Shown here piece after piece: positions 54,912-64,000 of a DNA stretch of 64,000 bases. The notes beneath the pieces were generated by a model. That model was not told the origin of the DNA. It did not search any database and saw only the letters and a program-made list of their open reading frames with translations. Position numbers and translations under genes: made by a program. Source of the stretch: Halococcus salifodinae DSM 8989 (GTDB taxonomy: Archaea > Halobacteriota > Halobacteria > Halobacteriales > Halococcaceae); the NCBI RefSeq assembly GCF_000336935.1, contig NZ_AOME01000051.1, positions 1-64,000 on the forward strand. Reading direction: 5' to 3'. Numbering within the stretch: the stretch's first letter is position 1; each line of letters starts with the position of its first letter.

Positions 54912-55066
54912 CGACCGGATCTCCAGGAGGCAGCCAAAAAATATTTTCTATTCGCCCGTCAACAGTGAGTATCCCGCTGTAGAATCGGCCGAATCTTCCG
55001 GTGGTATTCGTTGGTTATGGTGGTGTCAGCCACTAAACCCACCGTATTCCCGGATGAAGTTGCAAA

Positions 55067-55076
55067 CTATTAAATA
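55067..55076 (+). promoter_or_regulatory. Leaderless promoter of the PadR-type gene
   Basis: CTATTAAATA lies about 28 bases before ATG 55100, a good haloarchaeal TATA element at leaderless spacing. It supports ATG 55100 over ATG 55082. Confidence 0.6.
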
Positions 55077-55099
55077 GACTGATGACATATCACGGTGCG

Positions 55100-55456
55100 A
55101 TGTCAGAGGCACAAGCGGCACCGGACCGAAGTATCGCACGCGACTTGACGGCTTTTCAACAAAACATCCTCGTCATCCTTTCCGACGAGCCGATGTACGG
55201 CCTGGCGATCAAGCGCCAGCTCGAAGAGTACTACGACTCGGAGGTCAACCACGGGCGACTCTACCCCAACCTCGACGACCTCGTGGAGCTGGATCTGGTC
55301 GCCAAGAGCGAACTCGACAAGCGAACCAACCAGTACGAGCTCACCGACGCGGGCTACGAGGTCGTCGTCGACAAGCTCGACTGGACGTTCTCGAAGTTCG
55401 TGACCGACGCCGGGCGCGCCGACACCGTGCGCGACCTCGTCAACGACAACGCCTGA
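55100..55456 (+). CDS. PadR-family winged-helix regulator, RosR-like
   Basis: 118 residues from ATG 55100. PadR winged helix: DLTAFQQNILVILSDEPMYG, LAIKRQLEEYYDSEVNHGRL, YPNLDDLVELDLVAKSELDK and RTNQYELTDAGYEVVVDKL. The high match to what I recall of Halobacterium RosR, the regulator of the oxidative-stress response, suggests orthology. RosR binds DNA as a dimer and lacks a redox Cys; none is present here either. Confidence 0.83.
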   Translation: MSEAQAAPDRSIARDLTAFQQNILVILSDEPMYGLAIKRQLEEYYDSEVNHGRLYPNLDDLVELDLVAKSELDKRTNQYELTDAGYEVVVDKLDWTFSKFVTDAGRADTVRDLVNDNA

Positions 55457-55510
55457 GGCGGCCATCGACGGCGATTTTTCGCGGTGCGTGACGATGCTCG
55501 CGAGCGCCGG

Positions 55511-56323
55511 CTACGGCTCCGCGGCGTCGACGACCTCGTAGCTCACGTTGCCGTCGCGGAGCTCGCCGGTGTGGGCCGACAGCTGATCCGCGACCGCGAT
55601 CAGACAGACGTCGAGTCCCTTCGTGGCAGCTTCCCGGACCGCGGTCGCCGTCCCGAACCGGATGTCGGGGTCGACGTCCGCCGCCCGCGTCGCGGCCAGC
55701 GCCTCGGTCCCTGCCGTCGCCACCAGATCGTGGTCCGCAGCGGCATCGGCGACCGTCTCTGGATCGAGCGTCGTGCTGCCACCGTCCTGGACCTGTGGCA
55801 CTGAGAACACCGTCACCGTCCCGAGGTCGTAGTCGAGGACACCCGTGAAATCCGTCACGCCGACGTCCTCGCCGGCCGCAGCGTCGGTGACGGCGATCGC
55901 GGTCGCGCTCCCCGCATCGCCCGCCGTCGCCCGGAGCACGCCGTCGCCCATCGCGAGCGAGACCGTCGATCCCTCGTCGATCGCGGTCGTGGCGAGCGCG
56001 GTGTCGACCTCGACCTCCTCGATGACGTCCTCGGAGACGTGGCTGACGAACTCCCGAAGCTCGTCGGTCCGAGTCAACAGCCAGTCGACGCCCTCCTTGG
56101 TGACCTCGTACCGCCCACGACCGTGTTTCTCGACGTAGCCCTGGTCGATCAGGTCCTTCAAGTAGTCGCTCACGGCCTGAGAGGTGACGCCGATCGCGTC
56201 GGCGACCTCGCGCTGGCTGACCGCCGGCTGGCGCTCGGCGATCCCCGTGAGAATTCGATACCGGGTGGCGTTGCGCTTGCTCCGGAGCACCCCCACGTCC
56301 CCGGCGTCGCCCGCGTTCGTCAT
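55511..56323 (-). CDS. MarR-like HTH regulator divergent from the cobalamin operon
   Basis: 270 residues from ATG 56323. N-terminal winged helix (about 8-85): LRSKRNATRYRILTGIAERQ, VSQREVADAIGVTSQAVSDY, GYVEKHGRGRYEVTKEGVDW. The C-terminal 170 residues (FVSHVSEDVIEEVEVDTALA, then alternating strands) form an alpha/beta ligand-binding region of a type I know only from haloarchaeal DUF7839-like regulators. Its divergent position and the shared 148-base intergenic region make it a good candidate for controlling cbi expression. Confidence 0.8.
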   Translation of the reverse strand: MTNAGDAGDVGVLRSKRNATRYRILTGIAERQPAVSQREVADAIGVTSQAVSDYLKDLIDQGYVEKHGRGRYEVTKEGVDWLLTRTDELREFVSHVSEDVIEEVEVDTALATTAIDEGSTVSLAMGDGVLRATAGDAGSATAIAVTDAAAGEDVGVTDFTGVLDYDLGTVTVFSVPQVQDGGSTTLDPETVADAAADHDLVATAGTEALAATRAADVDPDIRFGTATAVREAATKGLDVCLIAVADQLSAHTGELRDGNVSYEVVDAAEP

Positions 56324-56347
56324 CGTCGGTGGTGTGTACCGCGAACG

Positions 56348-56445
56348 CAAGTAGTTTTGGTGTACTCCGGGCACGATTGTATCCGAGGCGGGATTTTCGC
56401 CGTCTGAAGAAATACTACTTGCATTAAAACAACCAAAATTGTTTT
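56348..56445. promoter_or_regulatory. Candidate operators between the regulator and cbiT
   Basis: Two elements. First, AAAACAACCAAAATTGTTTT (56426-56445) has 7-base arms around a 6-base spacer. Second, GCAAGTAGT occurs in opposite orientations on either side of the gap, as GCAAGTAGTTTTGG near 56351 and, reversed, in GAAATACTACTTGC near 56409. Both lie in the only AT-rich part of this divergent region. Confidence 0.55.
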
Positions 56446-56471
56446 ACTACTCACCGGAGTTGTCTTCGGTG

Positions 56472-57047
56472 ATGTCGCGTGTAGCGCTCCCTCACGACGC
56501 GAAAGCTGGCCCGACCAAATCGGAGGTACGGGCCGTGCTGCTCGGCAAACTCGGCCTGACGCCGACGGATCACTTCGTCGAAGTCGGGTCGTGTACCGGG
56601 GCCGTCACCATCGCGGCGGCACGGCGCGCGGGCCGGATCACCGCGCTCGAACGCAAGCCCGAACGCTTGGCGGTTACGGAAAGAAACCTCGCGGCCAACG
56701 ACGTTACCGCGGACGTCGAACTCCGCGAAGCCGAAGCGCCCGATGGCCTGCCCGAAGACGCCGACGCGCTGTTTCTCGGCGGCAGCCGGAACTACGAGGC
56801 CGTACTCGATCACGCCGTCGCGACCGGCGTCGACCGGATCGTGATGAACGTCTCCCGGCTCGAAGTCGCCGGGGCAGCCACCGCGGCGTTCCGCGAGCGC
56901 GACCTCCTCGACGAAGTCGTCCAGTTCCAGGTGAGCCACGGGTACGAGCTCGCTGGCGCGACGAGTTTCGATTCCCAGAACCCGGTGTATATGCTGGTTG
57001 GCGGGGCCAGCGACGCCGACGATACCACCGATGGAGGCGCGCCATGA
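56472..57047 (+). CDS. cbiT: Cobalt-precorrin-6B C15-methyltransferase (decarboxylating)
   Basis: 191 residues from ATG 56472. SAM-binding HFVEVGSCTGAVTIAAARR (family VDIGCGTG, here with Ser-Cys), ITALERKPERLAVTERNL, ADALFLGGSRNYEAVLDHA and GDRIVMNV-like VDRIVMNVSRLEV. It methylates C15 and decarboxylates the C12 acetate in the anaerobic pathway. First gene of the operon; the next gene's ATG overlaps its stop (ATGA). Confidence 0.9.
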   Translation: MSRVALPHDAKAGPTKSEVRAVLLGKLGLTPTDHFVEVGSCTGAVTIAAARRAGRITALERKPERLAVTERNLAANDVTADVELREAEAPDGLPEDADALFLGGSRNYEAVLDHAVATGVDRIVMNVSRLEVAGAATAAFRERDLLDEVVQFQVSHGYELAGATSFDSQNPVYMLVGGASDADDTTDGGAP

Positions 57048-57922
57048 GCCTCTATGGCGTCGGTCTCGGCCCCGGCGAGGCGGATCTCGTCACGCTCCGC
57101 GGCAAGCGCGTGCTCGAAACGACCGACGTGGTCTACTCGCCCGGTCGCCTCTCGCGGTCGGTGGCGATCGAGCACGTTCCCGAAGATCGCATCGGCGATC
57201 TCGACTTCCCGATGACCCGCGACGAGGACGAACTCCGGCGAGCCTGGCGCGAGGCCGCCGCGGAGATCGCGCCGCGGGCGCGCGACGGGACGGCCGCCTT
57301 CGTCACGCTCGGCGATCCCAACGTCTACTCGACGTTCGGCCATCTCCGACGGACGCTCGCGGCGTTTCATCCGGATGTCGGGATCGAGATCGTGCCCGGC
57401 GTGAGCGCGGTCACCGCCTTCGCGACCGCGCTCGGTGTCGAGATATCGTCGGGCGCGAGCCTCGCGCTCCGTGAGGCCGCCCGCGGCGCGGCCCCGACCG
57501 GTCCCGATCGAATGGTTTTGTTCAAAGTCACCGACGCGCCAACGACCCACGAGGGACTCCGCGAGGCGGGCTACGACGTGGTGTACGGCCGCCGGCTGTT
57601 CATGGAGCAGGGCGAGACCATCGTGACCGACGATCCCGACACGATCGCCGAGCGGGACTACTACACCCTGGCCTACGCCGAGAAGCGCGACCTCGACGTC
57701 ACACCGGCGACCGCCGCGTTCGAGGCGGAGGAGTCGGCTGGCGCTCCCGAGATGGAATCGAGAACGGAAGCCAGCGACGACGAGTCGGACGAACCGAGTC
57801 GAACGGCGGCGGACGACCGGGCCGGAACGACCGACAGCGACGGAACAGAGGGCGTCGCCGTCGCGGAGTGTGCCGAGGGCGAGGGCTGTGGCGACGAGAC
57901 GCCGGAGGTCCGCTCCCGATGA
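57044..57922 (+). CDS. cbiL: Cobalt-factor II C20-methyltransferase
   Basis: 292 residues. Tetrapyrrole methylase fold (about 1-225): GVGLGPGEADLVTLRGKRVL, VTLGDPNVYSTFGHL and EIVPGVSAVTAFATALG. The last 65 residues are an acidic, Ser/Thr-rich extension ending VAECAEGEGCGDE with two Cys, not usual in CbiL. Overlaps cbiT and cbiF by four bases each. Confidence 0.92.
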   Translation: MSLYGVGLGPGEADLVTLRGKRVLETTDVVYSPGRLSRSVAIEHVPEDRIGDLDFPMTRDEDELRRAWREAAAEIAPRARDGTAAFVTLGDPNVYSTFGHLRRTLAAFHPDVGIEIVPGVSAVTAFATALGVEISSGASLALREAARGAAPTGPDRMVLFKVTDAPTTHEGLREAGYDVVYGRRLFMEQGETIVTDDPDTIAERDYYTLAYAEKRDLDVTPATAAFEAEESAGAPEMESRTEASDDESDEPSRTAADDRAGTTDSDGTEGVAVAECAEGEGCGDETPEVRSR

Positions 57923-58791
57923 CCGATCCCCAGGACGCGATCGATGCGGCGGGGGCCGTCCGCGAGACGGAGCGCGATCCGCGGATCACCGAGCGAACCG
58001 CCGGCGAGATTCAGGACGGCATCCCGTTCATCGGAGCCGGGCCGGGCGATCCCGGCCTGCTGACGGTCACCGGCCGAAAGTTGGTCGAGGCTGCCGACCT
58101 CGTTGTCCACGCGGGCTCGCTCGTTAACAGCGAACTCCTCGATGCGTACTGTGCGGACGCCGAGCAGGTGTCGAGCATCGGAAAAGATCTGGAGGAGCTG
58201 ATTCCGCTCATGCGCGACGCCCACGAGGCCGGACGAAGCGTCGTCCGGCTTCACAGCGGCGATCCCGCGATCTACGGTGCGGCCCTCGAACAGATGGACG
58301 CGCTCGAACACGAGGATGTGCCAACCTACCTCGTGCCGGGCGTCACGTCGGCGTTCGCGGCGAGCGCGACGCTCCGGACCCAGCTCACCCTGAATGGCGT
58401 GGCGAACCACGTCGCGTTCACCCGGCCGCGGGGCGAGACCCTCGATCCCGACGAGGACCACATCGGCGAGTTCGTCGAAATGGGCGACGTCACGACCTGC
58501 ATCTATCTCGGTACCCACGCGATCGCCGAGACGATGGACCGCCTGGTCGAGACGGGCCACGACCCCGACACGCCGGTGACCGTCGTCTATCACGCCTCGT
58601 GGCCCGACGAGGACATCATCGAGGGCACGATCGGGACCATCGGCGAGAAAGTCGCGGCGGCGGGCTATCGAGCCTCGGCGATGGTCGTCATCGGCGACGC
58701 GGCGACGGGAGCAGGCTACGAGCGCTCCTATCTCTACGGCGACTGGGCGAACCGGGGCGCGGATGAAAGCGAGAGCGAGGCGGACGACTGA
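57919..58791 (+). CDS. cbiF: Cobalt-precorrin-4 C11-methyltransferase
   Basis: 290 residues. IPFIGAGPGDPGLLTVTGRK (about 35-54), VRLHSGDPAIYGAALEQMD, YLVPGVTSAFAASATL and QLTLNGVANHVAFTRPRGET identify CbiF/CobM, which adds a methyl to C11. Start ATG overlaps the cbiL stop. The following 261 bases are the only sizeable gap in the operon. Confidence 0.94.
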   Translation: MTDPQDAIDAAGAVRETERDPRITERTAGEIQDGIPFIGAGPGDPGLLTVTGRKLVEAADLVVHAGSLVNSELLDAYCADAEQVSSIGKDLEELIPLMRDAHEAGRSVVRLHSGDPAIYGAALEQMDALEHEDVPTYLVPGVTSAFAASATLRTQLTLNGVANHVAFTRPRGETLDPDEDHIGEFVEMGDVTTCIYLGTHAIAETMDRLVETGHDPDTPVTVVYHASWPDEDIIEGTIGTIGEKVAAAGYRASAMVVIGDAATGAGYERSYLYGDWANRGADESESEADD

Positions 58792-59052
58792 GATGCGACG
58801 GCAACACTCCCCAAAACGTGTAGAAAGCCCCCGCGCTCTCGACTCGGGCGGCTCGCTGCGCGCCTCGGCTCACGGCTCGCGGCGACGCCGCTCGCGCAGA
58901 CCGTGGCCTCCCTTCGATCGGCCACGCGCCGCTCGCCTTCGGTGCTTGCGTCGTCGGCCGTCGTCGAGAGACCGGCCACTTTCATTCCCACCCCTGCGGC
59001 TGGTCGGCCAGCAGTCACGCGCGATGATCCACAGACAGATCAATACTGAATC
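58792..59052. repeat. 261-base hairpin-rich insertion inside the cobalamin operon
   Basis: Runs from CAAAACGTGTAGAAAGCCCC through GC-rich inverted segments (GGCTCGCTGCGCGCCTCGGC, CCGGCCACTTTCATTCCCAC) to GCAGTCACGCG. I recall similar AGAAAGCCC...CCACTTTCATTCCC modules between genes of other haloarchaea, so it is probably a third dispersed repeat type. No internal gene. Confidence 0.5.
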
Positions 59053-60066
59053 ATGAGTACCGACACCAACGACACGGATTCGAGCGAAACGAGCGAACGA
59101 GAGGAATCGAACGGATCGAGCGGCCACTGCTCCACACCGGATTCGGATGGCGAGGTGGCCGAGGAGATCGCGATCGTGAGTTTCGAGCGCAAGCTCGACA
59201 CCGCCCGCGAGATCGCGGCGGGCATCGGCGAGGCGTACGACTCGGTCGACATCATCGAGTACCACGGCGACGTCTTCGAAGAGCACTGGGGCGAGTACGA
59301 CTGTTTCGTGGGGTTGATGGCCTCGGGCATCGCGATGCGCAAGACCGCGCCGCTGCTCGACAGCAAGTGGGACGATCCCGCGATCGTGGTCGTCGACGAG
59401 GAGTTGACGTGGGCGATCCCGATCACCGGCGGCCACCACGGCGCGAACCAGGTCGCGGGCGATCTCGCGGAGTTGGGTGCCGTTCCGGCGATGACGACCG
59501 CGAGCGAAGCGGCGGGCGAGCAGGGTGTCGAGAGCAAGGCGAAGGCGCTCGACGCCCACGTCGTCAACGGCGACTCGACGGTGGCGACCAACCTCGCAGT
59601 GCTGAACGACGATCTCGGTCCTGTCGCCCGACTCGACGGCCCCCAGGCAGTCCTCGTCGGCGACGACGTCACCGTTCTCAAACGCAACGGCGACACGGGC
59701 GTCGTGCTCGGGACAGGAACTGTCTCCGGCGTGCAGAAGGAACAAGTCCTCGGCGCGTGGGAGGCTGCTCTCGACGACCTCGATCTCGGGTTGAGTTTCG
59801 ACGATGTCGACTTCGTCGCGACCGGCACCCGGAAGGAGGGCGAGGAGGGGCTCTACGTGGCCGCCCAGGAGATCGGAGCGGGAGTCGTCCTCTTCGAGAA
59901 AGAGACCTTAGAGGGGTTCGAGGGGCCCTCACCCTCCCGATCGAAGGAGCTGATCGGGTGGCCGGGGATCGCGGAAGCGTCGGCGATCGCCGGTGGCCGT
60001 GACCACGAACTCGCGCGCGAAAAAGAGCGGTTCGACGACGCCGTGACCGTGGCGGTGGGGCGCTGA
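59053..60066 (+). CDS. cbiG: Cobalt-precorrin-5A hydrolase
   Basis: 337 residues. After a 45-residue Ser/Asp/Glu-rich tail with one Cys come the CbiG N-terminal domain (FVGLMASGIAMRKTAPLLDS, VVVDEELTWAIPITGGHHGA, NQVAGDLAELGAVPAMTTAS), a central linker region and the C-terminal CbiG/CobE domain (GVQKEQVLGAWEAALDDLD, VATGTRKEGEEGLYVAAQE). It opens the lactone ring and releases acetaldehyde. One base separates it from the next gene (TGAGATG). Confidence 0.93.
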   Translation: MSTDTNDTDSSETSEREESNGSSGHCSTPDSDGEVAEEIAIVSFERKLDTAREIAAGIGEAYDSVDIIEYHGDVFEEHWGEYDCFVGLMASGIAMRKTAPLLDSKWDDPAIVVVDEELTWAIPITGGHHGANQVAGDLAELGAVPAMTTASEAAGEQGVESKAKALDAHVVNGDSTVATNLAVLNDDLGPVARLDGPQAVLVGDDVTVLKRNGDTGVVLGTGTVSGVQKEQVLGAWEAALDDLDLGLSFDDVDFVATGTRKEGEEGLYVAAQEIGAGVVLFEKETLEGFEGPSPSRSKELIGWPGIAEASAIAGGRDHELAREKERFDDAVTVAVGR

Positions 60067-60067
60067 G

Positions 60068-60961
60068 ATGGCTGCGACGAACGACGACGATCTCGGGACG
60101 CTCTCCGTCGTCGGTATCGGCCCAGGTCTTCCGCACGCGATGACTCAGCGTGCGAAAGACGTGATCGCCACCGCCGACTGCGTGATCGCCTCGAATCTCT
60201 ACCAGGCGTTCCTGCGCCGGGACGGCACGCTGCCGCCAGAGGATGCCGCGGTCGCTGCGGCCACCGACGGCGGTACTGCCGCCGGTGACGACGGGGCGAC
60301 GGTGCTCGAACGACCGAACGGGACCCGCCAGACGCTCGTCCGGTCGTCGATGGGCCAGCAGATCGAACTCGCGCGCGAGGCGTTCGAGCGGGTCCGCGAC
60401 GGCGAGGACGTCGCCCACGTCTCCGGCGGCGATCCGAACGTCTACGGTAAGAGCGACTTGCTGTTCACGATGGCCGAAGCGGAGGGGGCGACGGATATCC
60501 CGATCGAGGTCGTGCCGGGCGTGACGGCTGCGCTCGGCGGCGCGGCGAACCTCGGCGCGCCCCTCTCGAACGACTTCTGCACGATCTCGCTTTCGGACAA
60601 GTGGCGCGGGTGGGACGAGATCGCCGAGAAGCTCCGCGCAGCCGCCATCAGCGGGTTCGTGATCGTGCTGTACAACTGCTGGCGCGACTACGAGCGCGCG
60701 ATCGACGTACTCCGTGAGGAGCGGAGCGACGACGTCCCGGTGGGGATCTTCAACGACGCCGGCCGAGGCGACGCCGGCCGGAATTTGGAGGACGAGACCC
60801 ACACCATCACGACGCTCGGCGCGGCGACCGACCACGACGACGAGGTCGGCGGGATGGGGACCTCGATCCTCGTCGGCAATCACGAGACGGCGGTCTGGGA
60901 GAACGATTTCGACGAGTACCTCGTCACCCCGCGCGGCGGGCGTGACGTCGACGATTTCTGA
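60068..60961 (+). CDS. cbiH2: Precorrin-3B C17-methyltransferase paralogue (CbiH2)
   Basis: 297 residues. SVVGIGPGLPHAMTQRAKDV, HVSGGDPNVYGKSDLLFTMA, EVVPGVTAALGGAANLGAP, DFCTISLSDKWRGWDEIAEK and VIVLYNCWRDYERAIDVL match CbiH/CobJ, with substitutions (LYN-C-W for YNP) typical of the second haloarchaeal copy. A variable insertion lies at about 60-85. CbiH contracts the ring and methylates C17; why two copies are kept is not known. Confidence 0.88.
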   Translation: MAATNDDDLGTLSVVGIGPGLPHAMTQRAKDVIATADCVIASNLYQAFLRRDGTLPPEDAAVAAATDGGTAAGDDGATVLERPNGTRQTLVRSSMGQQIELAREAFERVRDGEDVAHVSGGDPNVYGKSDLLFTMAEAEGATDIPIEVVPGVTAALGGAANLGAPLSNDFCTISLSDKWRGWDEIAEKLRAAAISGFVIVLYNCWRDYERAIDVLREERSDDVPVGIFNDAGRGDAGRNLEDETHTITTLGAATDHDDEVGGMGTSILVGNHETAVWENDFDEYLVTPRGGRDVDDF

Positions 60962-60963
60962 CC

Positions 60964-61956
60964 ATGAGCACTGACGACACCACCGAGACGACCGAAACCG
61001 ACGCGAGCACAGACGCGGAAACCACCACGGCAAGCGCCGAGAGTGAGTGCGGGGCGTCGAGTTCGACGACGGAGTCCGGATGCGGCGCAGCCGATACGGA
61101 CGAATCCGCTTCGAGCTGTGGTAGTTCGAAAGGAGACACGACCGACGAGAAGGTGGGATCGACGGTCGAAGACTTCGACGCCGATCCGGGCAGACTGATC
61201 GCCGTCGGTCTCGGCCCTGGCGAACCCGAGGGAATGACGAGTCGCGCGAAAGCGGCGCTCGCCGACGCCGAGCACATCGTGGGCTACACCACCTACGTCG
61301 ATCTGCTGCCCGACGGTATCACCGAGAACGCCGACGACATCCACTCGACGCCGATGTGCGGCGAAGTCTCCCGGACCGAGGAGGCGGTCGATCGCGCGCT
61401 CGCGGGCAACGCGGTCGCCATCATCGGGAGCGGCGATCCGAACGTCTACGCGCTCGCCGGCCTCGCGCTCGAGATCCTCGAATCGAAGGGTGCGACCGCC
61501 TCGATGGTCGAGTTCGACGTCGTGCCCGGCGTGCCCGCCGCCCAGTCCTGCGCCGCGCGCGTCGGCGCACCCCTGGTGAACGACACGGTGAGCGTTTCGC
61601 TGTCGGATCACTTGACGTCGATGGACACCATCGAGTCGCGGCTCCACGCGGTCGCCGCAGAGGGGTTCACCATCGCGATCTACAACCCGTGGAGCCGCAA
61701 GCGCCGAGAGAACTTCGAGACGTGCTGTGAGATCCTGCTCGAACACCGCGATCCGTCGACGCCGGTCGGGGTCGTCCACGGTGCGAGCCGAGACGACGAG
61801 GCGGCCGAGATCGTTGAACTGAATGAGCTCGAAGAGCTCGGCGAGACAGATCTGATCGACATGACGACGACGCTCCTCGTCGGCAACGAGGAGACGTACG
61901 TCTGGGACGACCGAATGGTCACCCCACGGGGCTACGAGTCGAAGTATGACTACTGA
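60964..61956 (+). CDS. cbiH1: Precorrin-3B C17-methyltransferase (CbiH1)
   Basis: 330 residues. The first 70 are a Thr/Ser/Asp/Glu-rich tail with four Cys (ECGASSS, GCGAADT, SCGSSKG). The catalytic fold follows: AVGLGPGEPEGMTSRAKAAL, VGYTTYVDLLPDGI, IGSGDPNVYALAGLALEI, VVPGVPAAQSCAARVGAPL, SVSLSDHLTSMDTIESRL and AIYNPWSRKRRENF, all canonical CbiH. The 3' end overlaps the ferredoxin gene by 11 bases. Confidence 0.92.
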   Translation: MSTDDTTETTETDASTDAETTTASAESECGASSSTTESGCGAADTDESASSCGSSKGDTTDEKVGSTVEDFDADPGRLIAVGLGPGEPEGMTSRAKAALADAEHIVGYTTYVDLLPDGITENADDIHSTPMCGEVSRTEEAVDRALAGNAVAIIGSGDPNVYALAGLALEILESKGATASMVEFDVVPGVPAAQSCAARVGAPLVNDTVSVSLSDHLTSMDTIESRLHAVAAEGFTIAIYNPWSRKRRENFETCCEILLEHRDPSTPVGVVHGASRDDEAAEIVELNELEELGETDLIDMTTTLLVGNEETYVWDDRMVTPRGYESKYDY

Positions 61957-62233
61957 GTACGAGATCCGTCTCGACCGGGAGCGGTGTGACGGCATCTTCG
62001 CCTGTCTCGTCCGCGACGACCGTTTCGTCGAGGCCACTGATGGACTGGCGACGATCGAGGCCTCGGACGACAGCGTGGCGAGCGAGCGGACGGCGGAGAC
62101 GGCCCTCGTCGCGACGTTCGATGACGACCGCATCGACGCTGCCCGACAGGCCGCCCGTGCCTGTCCGGTCGATGCGATCAGCGTGAGCGGAACCGACGGA
62201 GGAACCGACACGACGGAGGCCGACGATGAGTGA
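61946..62233 (+). CDS. Ferredoxin-like protein of the cobalamin operon
   Basis: 95 residues. RCDGIFACLVRDDRFVEATD and AARQAARACPVDAISVSG give a C-x5-C...C-P pattern of the small single-cluster 3Fe-4S/4Fe-4S ferredoxins, with one ligand fewer than a full 4Fe-4S site. It probably supplies electrons for the Co(II) to Co(I) step or for CbiX or CbiH. It overlaps both neighbours (11 and 8 bases). Confidence 0.8.
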   Translation: MTTEYEIRLDRERCDGIFACLVRDDRFVEATDGLATIEASDDSVASERTAETALVATFDDDRIDAARQAARACPVDAISVSGTDGGTDTTEADDE

Positions 62234-62936
62234 CACCGAGGAAGGGGCGGCGACGCCGGCCCCCGCCACGGACCTGCTCGCGGCGTCGCCGGCGACGGCG
62301 TACTTCTGGGGCCGGGTCGCGGGCGACGGCGACCTCTCTCGCAACAGTGTGACCGTGCGCGCGGGCGACGACACCGCGGCCGACGCGCTGGCGGCGGTCG
62401 CGGGCGCGAACCGAACCGACCACCGGGTCGCGGCGCGCGAATCGGCCCACGACGCGTCGATCGTCCGATACGAGGACGAGTACGAACTCCAGGTGATCGG
62501 CGCGCCCGCCGAGCGCGCCAGCGCGGCACTCGGACTCCCGATCGACGGCCAGGCCGGCGGCTACCGATTCGACGCGTTCGCCGACCACCGCGCGCCGCTC
62601 GTTCGGGGGCTGCTCGAAGCCTGCGGCACCGTCTGCTTCCGGGAGTCAGCGGGGAGGGTCGGAATCTCGTTCGTCCACGACGACGAGCGCCTGCTCGAAA
62701 CGGTCCGCTCGCTCCTCGACGCCGCCGATCCACACGTTCCGACCGACGACCTCGCCAAAAGCTCCTCGGGCGGGTACTGGTTCGGGCTGGCGGACGACGC
62801 CGATGTCGCCGGATTCGCCCAGTGGGTGTACGCCGGGAGCGACGTGTCGGGACTCTACTCCGAGAATCGACGCCGGAAGCTCCGCCGGAGCGTCGAACGC
62901 GCAACCGGCGGCGACGTCGGAGAGCTCTCGGGATGA
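62226..62936 (+). CDS. Cobalamin-operon protein with LAGLIDADG-like fold
   Basis: 236 residues. Two motifs about 100 residues apart resemble the LAGLIDADG helices of homing endonucleases: YFWGRVAGDGDL (26-37) and LVRGLLEACGTVCF (125-138). The C-terminal FAQWVYAGSDVSGLYSENRR (197-216) resembles the F-x-x-W-L-Y-x-x-A closing element. In motif 1 the catalytic-position Asp is kept (D34); in motif 2 it is Cys (C133). Haloarchaeal genomes annotate the gene here simply as cobalamin biosynthesis protein. A DNA-binding or scaffold role is inferred. Confidence 0.7.
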   Translation: MSDTEEGAATPAPATDLLAASPATAYFWGRVAGDGDLSRNSVTVRAGDDTAADALAAVAGANRTDHRVAARESAHDASIVRYEDEYELQVIGAPAERASAALGLPIDGQAGGYRFDAFADHRAPLVRGLLEACGTVCFRESAGRVGISFVHDDERLLETVRSLLDAADPHVPTDDLAKSSSGGYWFGLADDADVAGFAQWVYAGSDVSGLYSENRRRKLRRSVERATGGDVGELSG

Positions 62937-64000
62937 CCGCGAGCGCGCAGGCCGCCCCCGCAGGACTCGACGACGAGGCGGTACTGCTGGTCGGTCACGG
63001 CTCCCGGCGCGAGAAGTCGAACGAGCAGGTCCGCGAGCTCGCCAGTGGGATGGAAGACCGACTGGGCGTCCCGGTCGACGTCGGCTTTCTCGAACTCGCC
63101 GCACCGTCGATCGACGAGGCGATCGCGGGGCTCGCCCCGGCGGTGTCGCGAGTTACGGTCGTCCAGCTCTCGCTGTTCGCCGCGAGCCACGTCAAAAACG
63201 ACGTACCGCTCGCCGTCGAACGTGCCCGCTCGGCACACCCCGATCTGACGCTGCACAACGGCTCGCATCTCGGCGTCCATCCCGCGATCGTCGATCTGCT
63301 CGACGATCGGGCTGCCGCGGTGGAGGATGGGTTGGAAGCGGATCGCGGGGCCGAGGAGGTCGCGGTCGTGCTCTGTGCGCGCGGGTCCAGCGATCCCGAC
63401 GCCAACGCCGACGTGCACAAGCTGGCACGGCTGCTCTACGAGGGCCGTGCGCTCGATCGGGTCGAGGCGTGTTTCGTCGGTGTCACCGAACCGCGGCTGT
63501 CGGGGGCGCTTCACGCAGTCGCCAAACACCGCCCCGACGCGATCGTCGTGCTGCCGTACATGCTCGGTGACGGCGTGCTCACCCAGCGGATCCGGGACCG
63601 TACTGCGGAGTTCGACGCCGAGTACCCCTACGTCGACGCGGCGGCCGGCGACCCGCTCGGCACCGATCCGCGGTTGCTCGACGTGCTCTGTGATCGGTGG
63701 CAGGCGGCCCGAACCGACAGCGTCGAGATGTCGTGTGACACCTGCAAGTACAAAGTCGAACTCGACGGCTACGAGGAGGACGTCGGCGGTGCGCGCGCGA
63801 TGCTTCGTGCGCTCACCCACCAGGAATCCCACGCCGACCGCGAGAGCGTCGACGACGATCCCCACGCCCACGACGCGCCCGCAAAACACGTCGCGGTCTG
63901 TACGAACCAGACCTGCGCCGCCGACGGCGCGCCCGCGGTGCTCGAACGGCTCCGACAGGCGGCCCGCGACTCCGCAGCCTGCGACGCCCGAATCACCCGC
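62933..64000 (+). CDS. cbiX: Sirohydrochlorin cobaltochelatase CbiX, ferredoxin fusion (3' truncated by window end)
   Basis: 356 residues visible; the frame is open at the window edge. N-terminal CbiX repeats: VLLVGHGSRREKSNEQVREL (about 18-37), VVQLSLFAASHVKNDVP and LHNGSHLGVHPAI, then VVLCARGSSDPDANADVH for the second half. After about 265 comes MSCDTCKYKVELDGYEED, a His/Asp-rich stretch HADRESVDDDPHAHDAPAKH and VAVCTNQTCAADGAPAVL, the start of a thioredoxin-like 2Fe-2S ferredoxin. It inserts cobalt into sirohydrochlorin. ATGA overlap with the previous gene. Confidence 0.92.
   Translation, partial: MTASAQAAPAGLDDEAVLLVGHGSRREKSNEQVRELASGMEDRLGVPVDVGFLELAAPSIDEAIAGLAPAVSRVTVVQLSLFAASHVKNDVPLAVERARSAHPDLTLHNGSHLGVHPAIVDLLDDRAAAVEDGLEADRGAEEVAVVLCARGSSDPDANADVHKLARLLYEGRALDRVEACFVGVTEPRLSGALHAVAKHRPDAIVVLPYMLGDGVLTQRIRDRTAEFDAEYPYVDAAAGDPLGTDPRLLDVLCDRWQAARTDSVEMSCDTCKYKVELDGYEEDVGGARAMLRALTHQESHADRESVDDDPHAHDAPAKHVAVCTNQTCAADGAPAVLERLRQAARDSAACDARITR

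Follow-up and report, generated by a model that had tools for sequence, protein, structure and literature searches.

LAGLIDADG proteins include homing and intein endonucleases (PF14528; I-DmoI, the TliVMA intein, I-SceI), and domesticated members such as WhiA and yeast HO are already known. WhiA, a regulator of Gram-positive bacteria that joins a LAGLIDADG-like domain to a helix-turn-helix (HTH), serves in the literature as an example of a host reusing the fold. In the papers searched, we found no domesticated LAGLIDADG protein that has a settled place in a cofactor pathway and carries a conserved set of Cys and His residues.

Four conserved genes in the cobalamin cluster of haloarchaea are without an assigned function, and cluster genes of this kind have been put forward to fill the absent CbiD and CbiJ steps (PMC8305020). 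One gene without an assigned function, HVO_B0055 of Haloferax volcanii, adjoins cbiX1 (HVO_B0054); the neighbouring HVO_B0056 likewise has no assigned function, and HVO_B0057 is cbiH2 (PMC8305020). The same paper gives no fold for HVO_B0055, and the term LAGLIDADG is absent from its main text. Two routes of cobalt supply to B12 synthesis have been described elsewhere: Bacillus CbiXL has a His-rich tail for which metal storage and delivery have been proposed, and CobW is reported to supply Co(II) through thiols (CxCC) late in the pathway (PMC7689651).

Here we describe a 236-residue protein, hereafter X, encoded in the cobalamin operon of Halococcus salifodinae DSM 8989, within the 64,000-nucleotide stretch of DNA that was analysed (the window). 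Judging by the order of locus tags, X occupies the same place as HVO_B0055 and is probably its orthologue, the likeness being one of position. The predicted two-repeat fold, the motif helices, the closing helix and the basic tail are shared with LAGLIDADG endonucleases; in contrast to these, X has not kept the catalytic acids, lies in no intron or intein, and combines a conserved Cys/His set with a fixed slot in a metabolic operon. Its difference from WhiA lies in the lack of a detected HTH, the restriction to haloarchaea and the cobalamin operon context, and in both sequence and fold it is unrelated to the CbiXL tail and to CobW. The features of the locus are as follows.

56425 to 56446, no strand assigned: 22-bp operator-like palindrome before cbiT, TAAAACAACCAAAATTGTTTTA, kept in operons with and without X
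56439 to 61956, forward strand: operon genes upstream of X, namely cbiT, cbiL, cbiF, cbiG, cbiH1 and cbiH2
61946 to 62233, forward strand: 4Fe-4S ferredoxin (Fer4_15), overlapping the start of X
62226 to 62936, forward strand: X, predicted two-repeat LAGLIDADG-fold protein and probable HVO_B0055 orthologue (open reading frame, model, fold search, orthologues)
62304 to 62330, forward strand: first LAGLIDADG helix end, FWGRVAGDG (residues 27-35), with Asp34 at the catalytic position
62448 to 62450, forward strand: codon of His75, kept in 77/77 sequences, possible metal ligand
62601 to 62627, forward strand: second LAGLIDADG helix end, VRGLLEACG (residues 126-134), with Cys133 at the position of the catalytic Asp
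62622 to 62624, forward strand: codon of Cys133, 75/77, proposed metal ligand
62634 to 62636, forward strand: codon of Cys137, 77/77, proposed metal ligand
62676 to 62678, forward strand: codon of His151, 72/77, proposed metal ligand
62814 to 62888, forward strand: closing helix FAQWVYAGSD (residues 197-206) and basic tail RRRKLRR
62933 to 64000, forward strand: CbiX cobaltochelatase with two CbiX domains, an MxCxxC motif and a C-terminal 2Fe-2S thioredoxin-like domain

The first 8 bases of X overlap the ferredoxin reading frame, and its TGA stop codon overlaps the ATG of cbiX in the ATGA at 62933-62936; the cbiX frame itself runs past the end of the window (L105:7933-9159). The operon reads cbiT-cbiL-cbiF-cbiG-cbiH1-cbiH2-ferredoxin-X-cbiX-DUF3209-beta-propeller, followed by genes for a 2Fe-2S protein, CbtAB, ChlID, CobN and CbiC, the labels of the later genes resting also on an annotated Halorubrum plasmid and on PMC8305020. 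No Rfam element, riboswitches included, was found at 55000-64000. A previous sequence-only reading of this DNA had placed the gene, both motifs, Cys133 and the FAQWVYAGSD element exactly where we find them, and had reported overlapping genes on both sides, which prove to be the ferredoxin and cbiX.

The assignment of X to the LAGLIDADG fold draws on structure prediction and on comparisons made at the level of the family. An AlphaFold model built from a 75-sequence alignment was confident (pLDDT 91.3, pTM 0.89) and consists of two alpha-beta-beta-alpha-beta-beta-alpha repeats, which include the motif helices, and a C-terminal helix. When this model was compared with the PDB using Foldseek, ranks 1-30 were all LAGLIDADG proteins, among them the TliVMA intein, I-DmoI, PI-SceI, the bI3 maturase, I-WcaI, I-SceI, I-OnuI and I-GzeII; matches were at a probability of 1.00 and 18 had E <= 0.001, at a query TM of about 0.3-0.5. 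The two motifs lie 99 residues apart, and both halves of an X profile matched, with the motif in register, a profile made from the LAGLIDADG domains of haloarchaeal intein-type proteins (residues 8-107, score 35.0; residues 115-171, score 31.5), the best score from 20 column shuffles used as a control being 19.1. Scanned singly, 34/75 orthologues matched PF14528 (LAGLIDADG_3) with a best E of 2.6e-5, in the second half of the protein wherever the position of the match was given, at up to 18.6 bits and thus below the curated cut-off of 22.5 bits. The protein of the window alone had no Pfam match, the PF14528 cut-off again not being reached, so that the resemblance in sequence becomes visible at the family level only. 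Since an NCBIfam scan of the single protein returned nothing and a profile search of PDB sequences with X gave no LAGLIDADG match, the link is drawn from family members, intein profiles and structure. By eye, the closing helix and the basic tail, in whose region R215 and K218 are invariant, resemble the ends of LAGLIDADG domains. Taken together, the model, the fold search, the intein profiles and the PF14528 matches bear out the two-repeat, saddle-type fold that had been read from the motifs, and we regard X as confirmed, on this model-based footing, as a real haloarchaeal gene for a LAGLIDADG-fold protein.

Orthologues of X were found in 147/292 Halobacteria genomes, always as one copy per genome, and a search of 295 genomes drawn from the phylum turned up X in its own order only. 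A haloarchaeal CbiG model scored above cut-off in 151 of the 292 genomes; X is present in 146 of these and in one weak case without CbiG, a co-occurrence (Fisher 3e-76) to be read descriptively, as the genomes are related. In the sampled operons X sits between the ferredoxin and cbiX, the exceptions being a two-part operon in G014 and an X that lies apart in G021. Five genomes (G001, G007, G052, G129 and G269) have the operon without X. A job in cobalamin synthesis, previously supposed from the overlapping neighbours, is thus borne out by co-occurrence and synteny, and X is very probably a non-cleaving LAGLIDADG protein that serves this pathway. One contig labelled as belonging to a bacterial Salinivenus MAG (L031) carries a haloarchaeal operon with an X of 79% identity, probably through a binning error.

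In the 77 aligned sequences, the second catalytic position of X is occupied by Cys in 75, by Ala in 1 and by Thr in 1, and the first by Asp in 44, Ser in 20, Asn in 6, Gly in 4 and Ala in 3. Of the haloarchaeal LAGLIDADG domains sampled for comparison, all that could be read have Asp or Glu there, with one exception. In active homing endonucleases each motif helix ends in an acidic residue, a pairing that X does not retain, and to judge from these substitutions DNA cleavage has probably been lost. The idea that Cys had replaced one catalytic Asp, at the probable expense of cleavage, holds across orthologues for the second acid; the first is Asp in 44/77 only. Residues A25, Y26, W28, G29, A52, H75, G128, E131, G134, C137, G146, S148, S181, F186 and Y202 are invariant, and the only Cys or His columns conserved above 90% are H75, C133, C137 and H151. 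In nucleases, the end of the second LAGLIDADG helix binds a divalent metal. Aligned by hand, His151 falls near Q42 of I-DmoI. The X proteins of G174 (L082) and G014 (L083) have an extra linker between the LAGLIDADG halves, and that of G174 carries the Thr at the Cys133 position.

What X may do for the pathway is suggested by the operons that lack it. In the 38 X-positive genomes examined, the thioredoxin-like 2Fe-2S domain forms the end of CbiX and a His-rich stretch is lacking (the maximum is 6 His per 40 residues in 37 of the 38), and in all five X-less genomes a CbiX with a His-rich tail is found (12-16 His in 40 aa). Four of the X-less operons (L106, L107, L109 and L110) are of a compact type, missing the ferredoxin, X, DUF3209 and the propeller, with the His-tailed protein as their sole CbiX. 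The fifth, in G052, has kept the ferredoxin, the Fe-S CbiX, DUF3209 and the propeller, and only X is gone: a second, His-tailed CbiX (L108:12703-13644) fills the exact slot of X between the ferredoxin and the Fe-S CbiX, its start overlapping the end of the ferredoxin gene by 4 bases. X was absent from a search of this one-contig genome. A genome-wide search for CbiX of this type gave a single copy per X-positive genome, and G052 had two. The mutual exclusion of X and the His tail amounts to about two independent events, one in a clade of four related operons, which have also lost the ferredoxin and DUF3209, and one in G052, which tempers our confidence in a cobalt mechanism.

A divergent X in G021 (34% identity) retains H75, C133 and C137 and has lost H151. 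It lies in a four-gene, one-strand run (L062:4445-7454) beside two cation-efflux (CDF) genes and a rhodanese gene, a neighbourhood seen in this single genome, whose X lacks His151. Its structure predicted from the single sequence is of low confidence (pLDDT 54) with a similar order of elements. Close by, at L062:9362-11443, a dCTP-deaminase-like gene contains an intein-like LAGLIDADG insert.

The exclusion by His-tailed CbiX, the CDF context in G021 and the precedents of CbiXL and CobW together favour metal handling as the role of X. We tentatively propose, at somewhat less than even odds, that X is a dead LAGLIDADG protein turned cobalt-handling partner of CbiX. X would descend from a homing endonuclease with two LAGLIDADG motifs, whose ability to cut DNA was lost and which joined the operon for cobalt-early cobalamin synthesis in a haloarchaeal ancestor. 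There X would handle Co(II), storing it and handing it over to CbiX, the product of its overlapping neighbour gene, which X would presumably contact. Cys133, in place of the former Asp at the end of the second helix, could form a soft Co(II) site with Cys137, His151 and, possibly, His75. Against such a site, Cys133 is absent from 2 and His151 from 5 of the 77 sequences. Slightly more speculative is the further idea that the metal-binding catalytic centre of the LAGLIDADG fold became a Cys/His cobalt site, so that X, which is unrelated to CobW, would represent a novel type of carrier bringing cobalt to a class II chelatase.

Several other roles have to be weighed against cobalt handling. The sequence-only reading had considered regulation and drawn a parallel with WhiA, and a role for X in binding DNA to regulate the cobalamin operon, as WhiA regulates its targets, can call on a LAGLIDADG fold with a basic C-terminal tail, on WhiA as a LAGLIDADG-derived precedent and on the conserved operator-like site before cbiT. 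In the window this palindrome has the form TAAAACAA-N6-TTGTTTTA, and the window's own genome contains a single copy when <= 2 mismatches are allowed. It precedes cbiT in 39/41 operon loci, none being found in L033 and L043, loci with a shorter flank; it is likely an operator. However, it is kept in 5/5 X-less operons with 2-4 mismatches of 16, where decay would be expected if X read it, and X as the binder of the site is rejected as the simplest reading. A winged-helix gene (MarR/DUF7839, 55511-56374), which lies divergently to cbiT in the window and in several related genomes, encodes a better candidate for the regulator of the palindrome. Further against regulation by X, neither the family scan nor the model revealed an HTH, the protein has an acidic pI of 4.65, a usual trait of haloarchaeal proteins, and a regulator would hardly be expected to give way to a chelatase gene, as X does in G052. 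The parallel with WhiA thus stands as far as domestication of the fold is concerned and fails for the HTH, WhiA itself being absent from the 50 PDB matches listed. We disfavour regulation and consider it distinctly improbable. The reading of X as a homing endonuclease that has stayed active, or as a selfish insertion in the operon, has the fold itself in its favour and is scarcely credible, given that one or both catalytic acids are lost, that the gene holds a constant slot in the examined operons and co-occurs with them, and that it is single-copy, free-standing and overlapping, outside any intron or intein.

A role within the pathway chemistry has also to be considered. X might bind a tetrapyrrole, either sirohydrochlorin or a cobalt-corrin intermediate, in the former DNA saddle, as a scaffold on which unstable intermediates move among CbiX, the ferredoxin and the methyltransferases, perhaps shielded from oxygen; this seems unlikely. 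A corrin-binding scaffold using the Cys was the other role raised in the sequence-only reading, and the comparative evidence points rather to cobalt supply for CbiX. Such a scaffold would fit the strict conservation across both halves of X and its near-obligatory membership in the operon. It would also suit the absence of heme-copper oxidase from 3/5 X-less genomes (3/4 of those with the compact operon), X largely tracking aerobic life. Yet G052 and G269 possess oxidases and lack X, which weakens aerobic life as a sole explanation, and the replacement of X by a His-tailed CbiX is left unexplained; we know of no LAGLIDADG protein that binds tetrapyrroles. Less probable still is that X is the missing CbiD (EC 2.1.1.195) or CbiJ (EC 1.3.1.106) enzyme. 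In support of this, candidates have been suggested among the cluster genes without an assigned function (PMC8305020), and across 292 haloarchaeal genomes we found CbiD in none and CbiJ above cut-off in none. Against it, the five X-less operons also lack both CbiD and CbiJ and have kept the remaining pathway genes found there, so that X cannot be a general replacement for either. To our knowledge, no LAGLIDADG fold binds SAM or NADPH, and the CbiH1 paralogue, present in both operon types, is a better candidate. This divergent CbiH paralogue (60068-60961 in the window) may be considered for one of the missing steps in its own right.

Cobalt handling thus remains our preferred, tentative reading. 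A fold and an origin can now be given to one gene of the haloarchaeal cobalamin cluster without an assigned function; we have argued that this gene does not encode the missing CbiD or CbiJ enzyme and offer a cobalt-supply role as a testable one. If true, X would be an unusual LAGLIDADG protein with a job away from nucleic acids, and cobalt would reach B12 chelatases by one more route in addition to CobW and His-rich tails.
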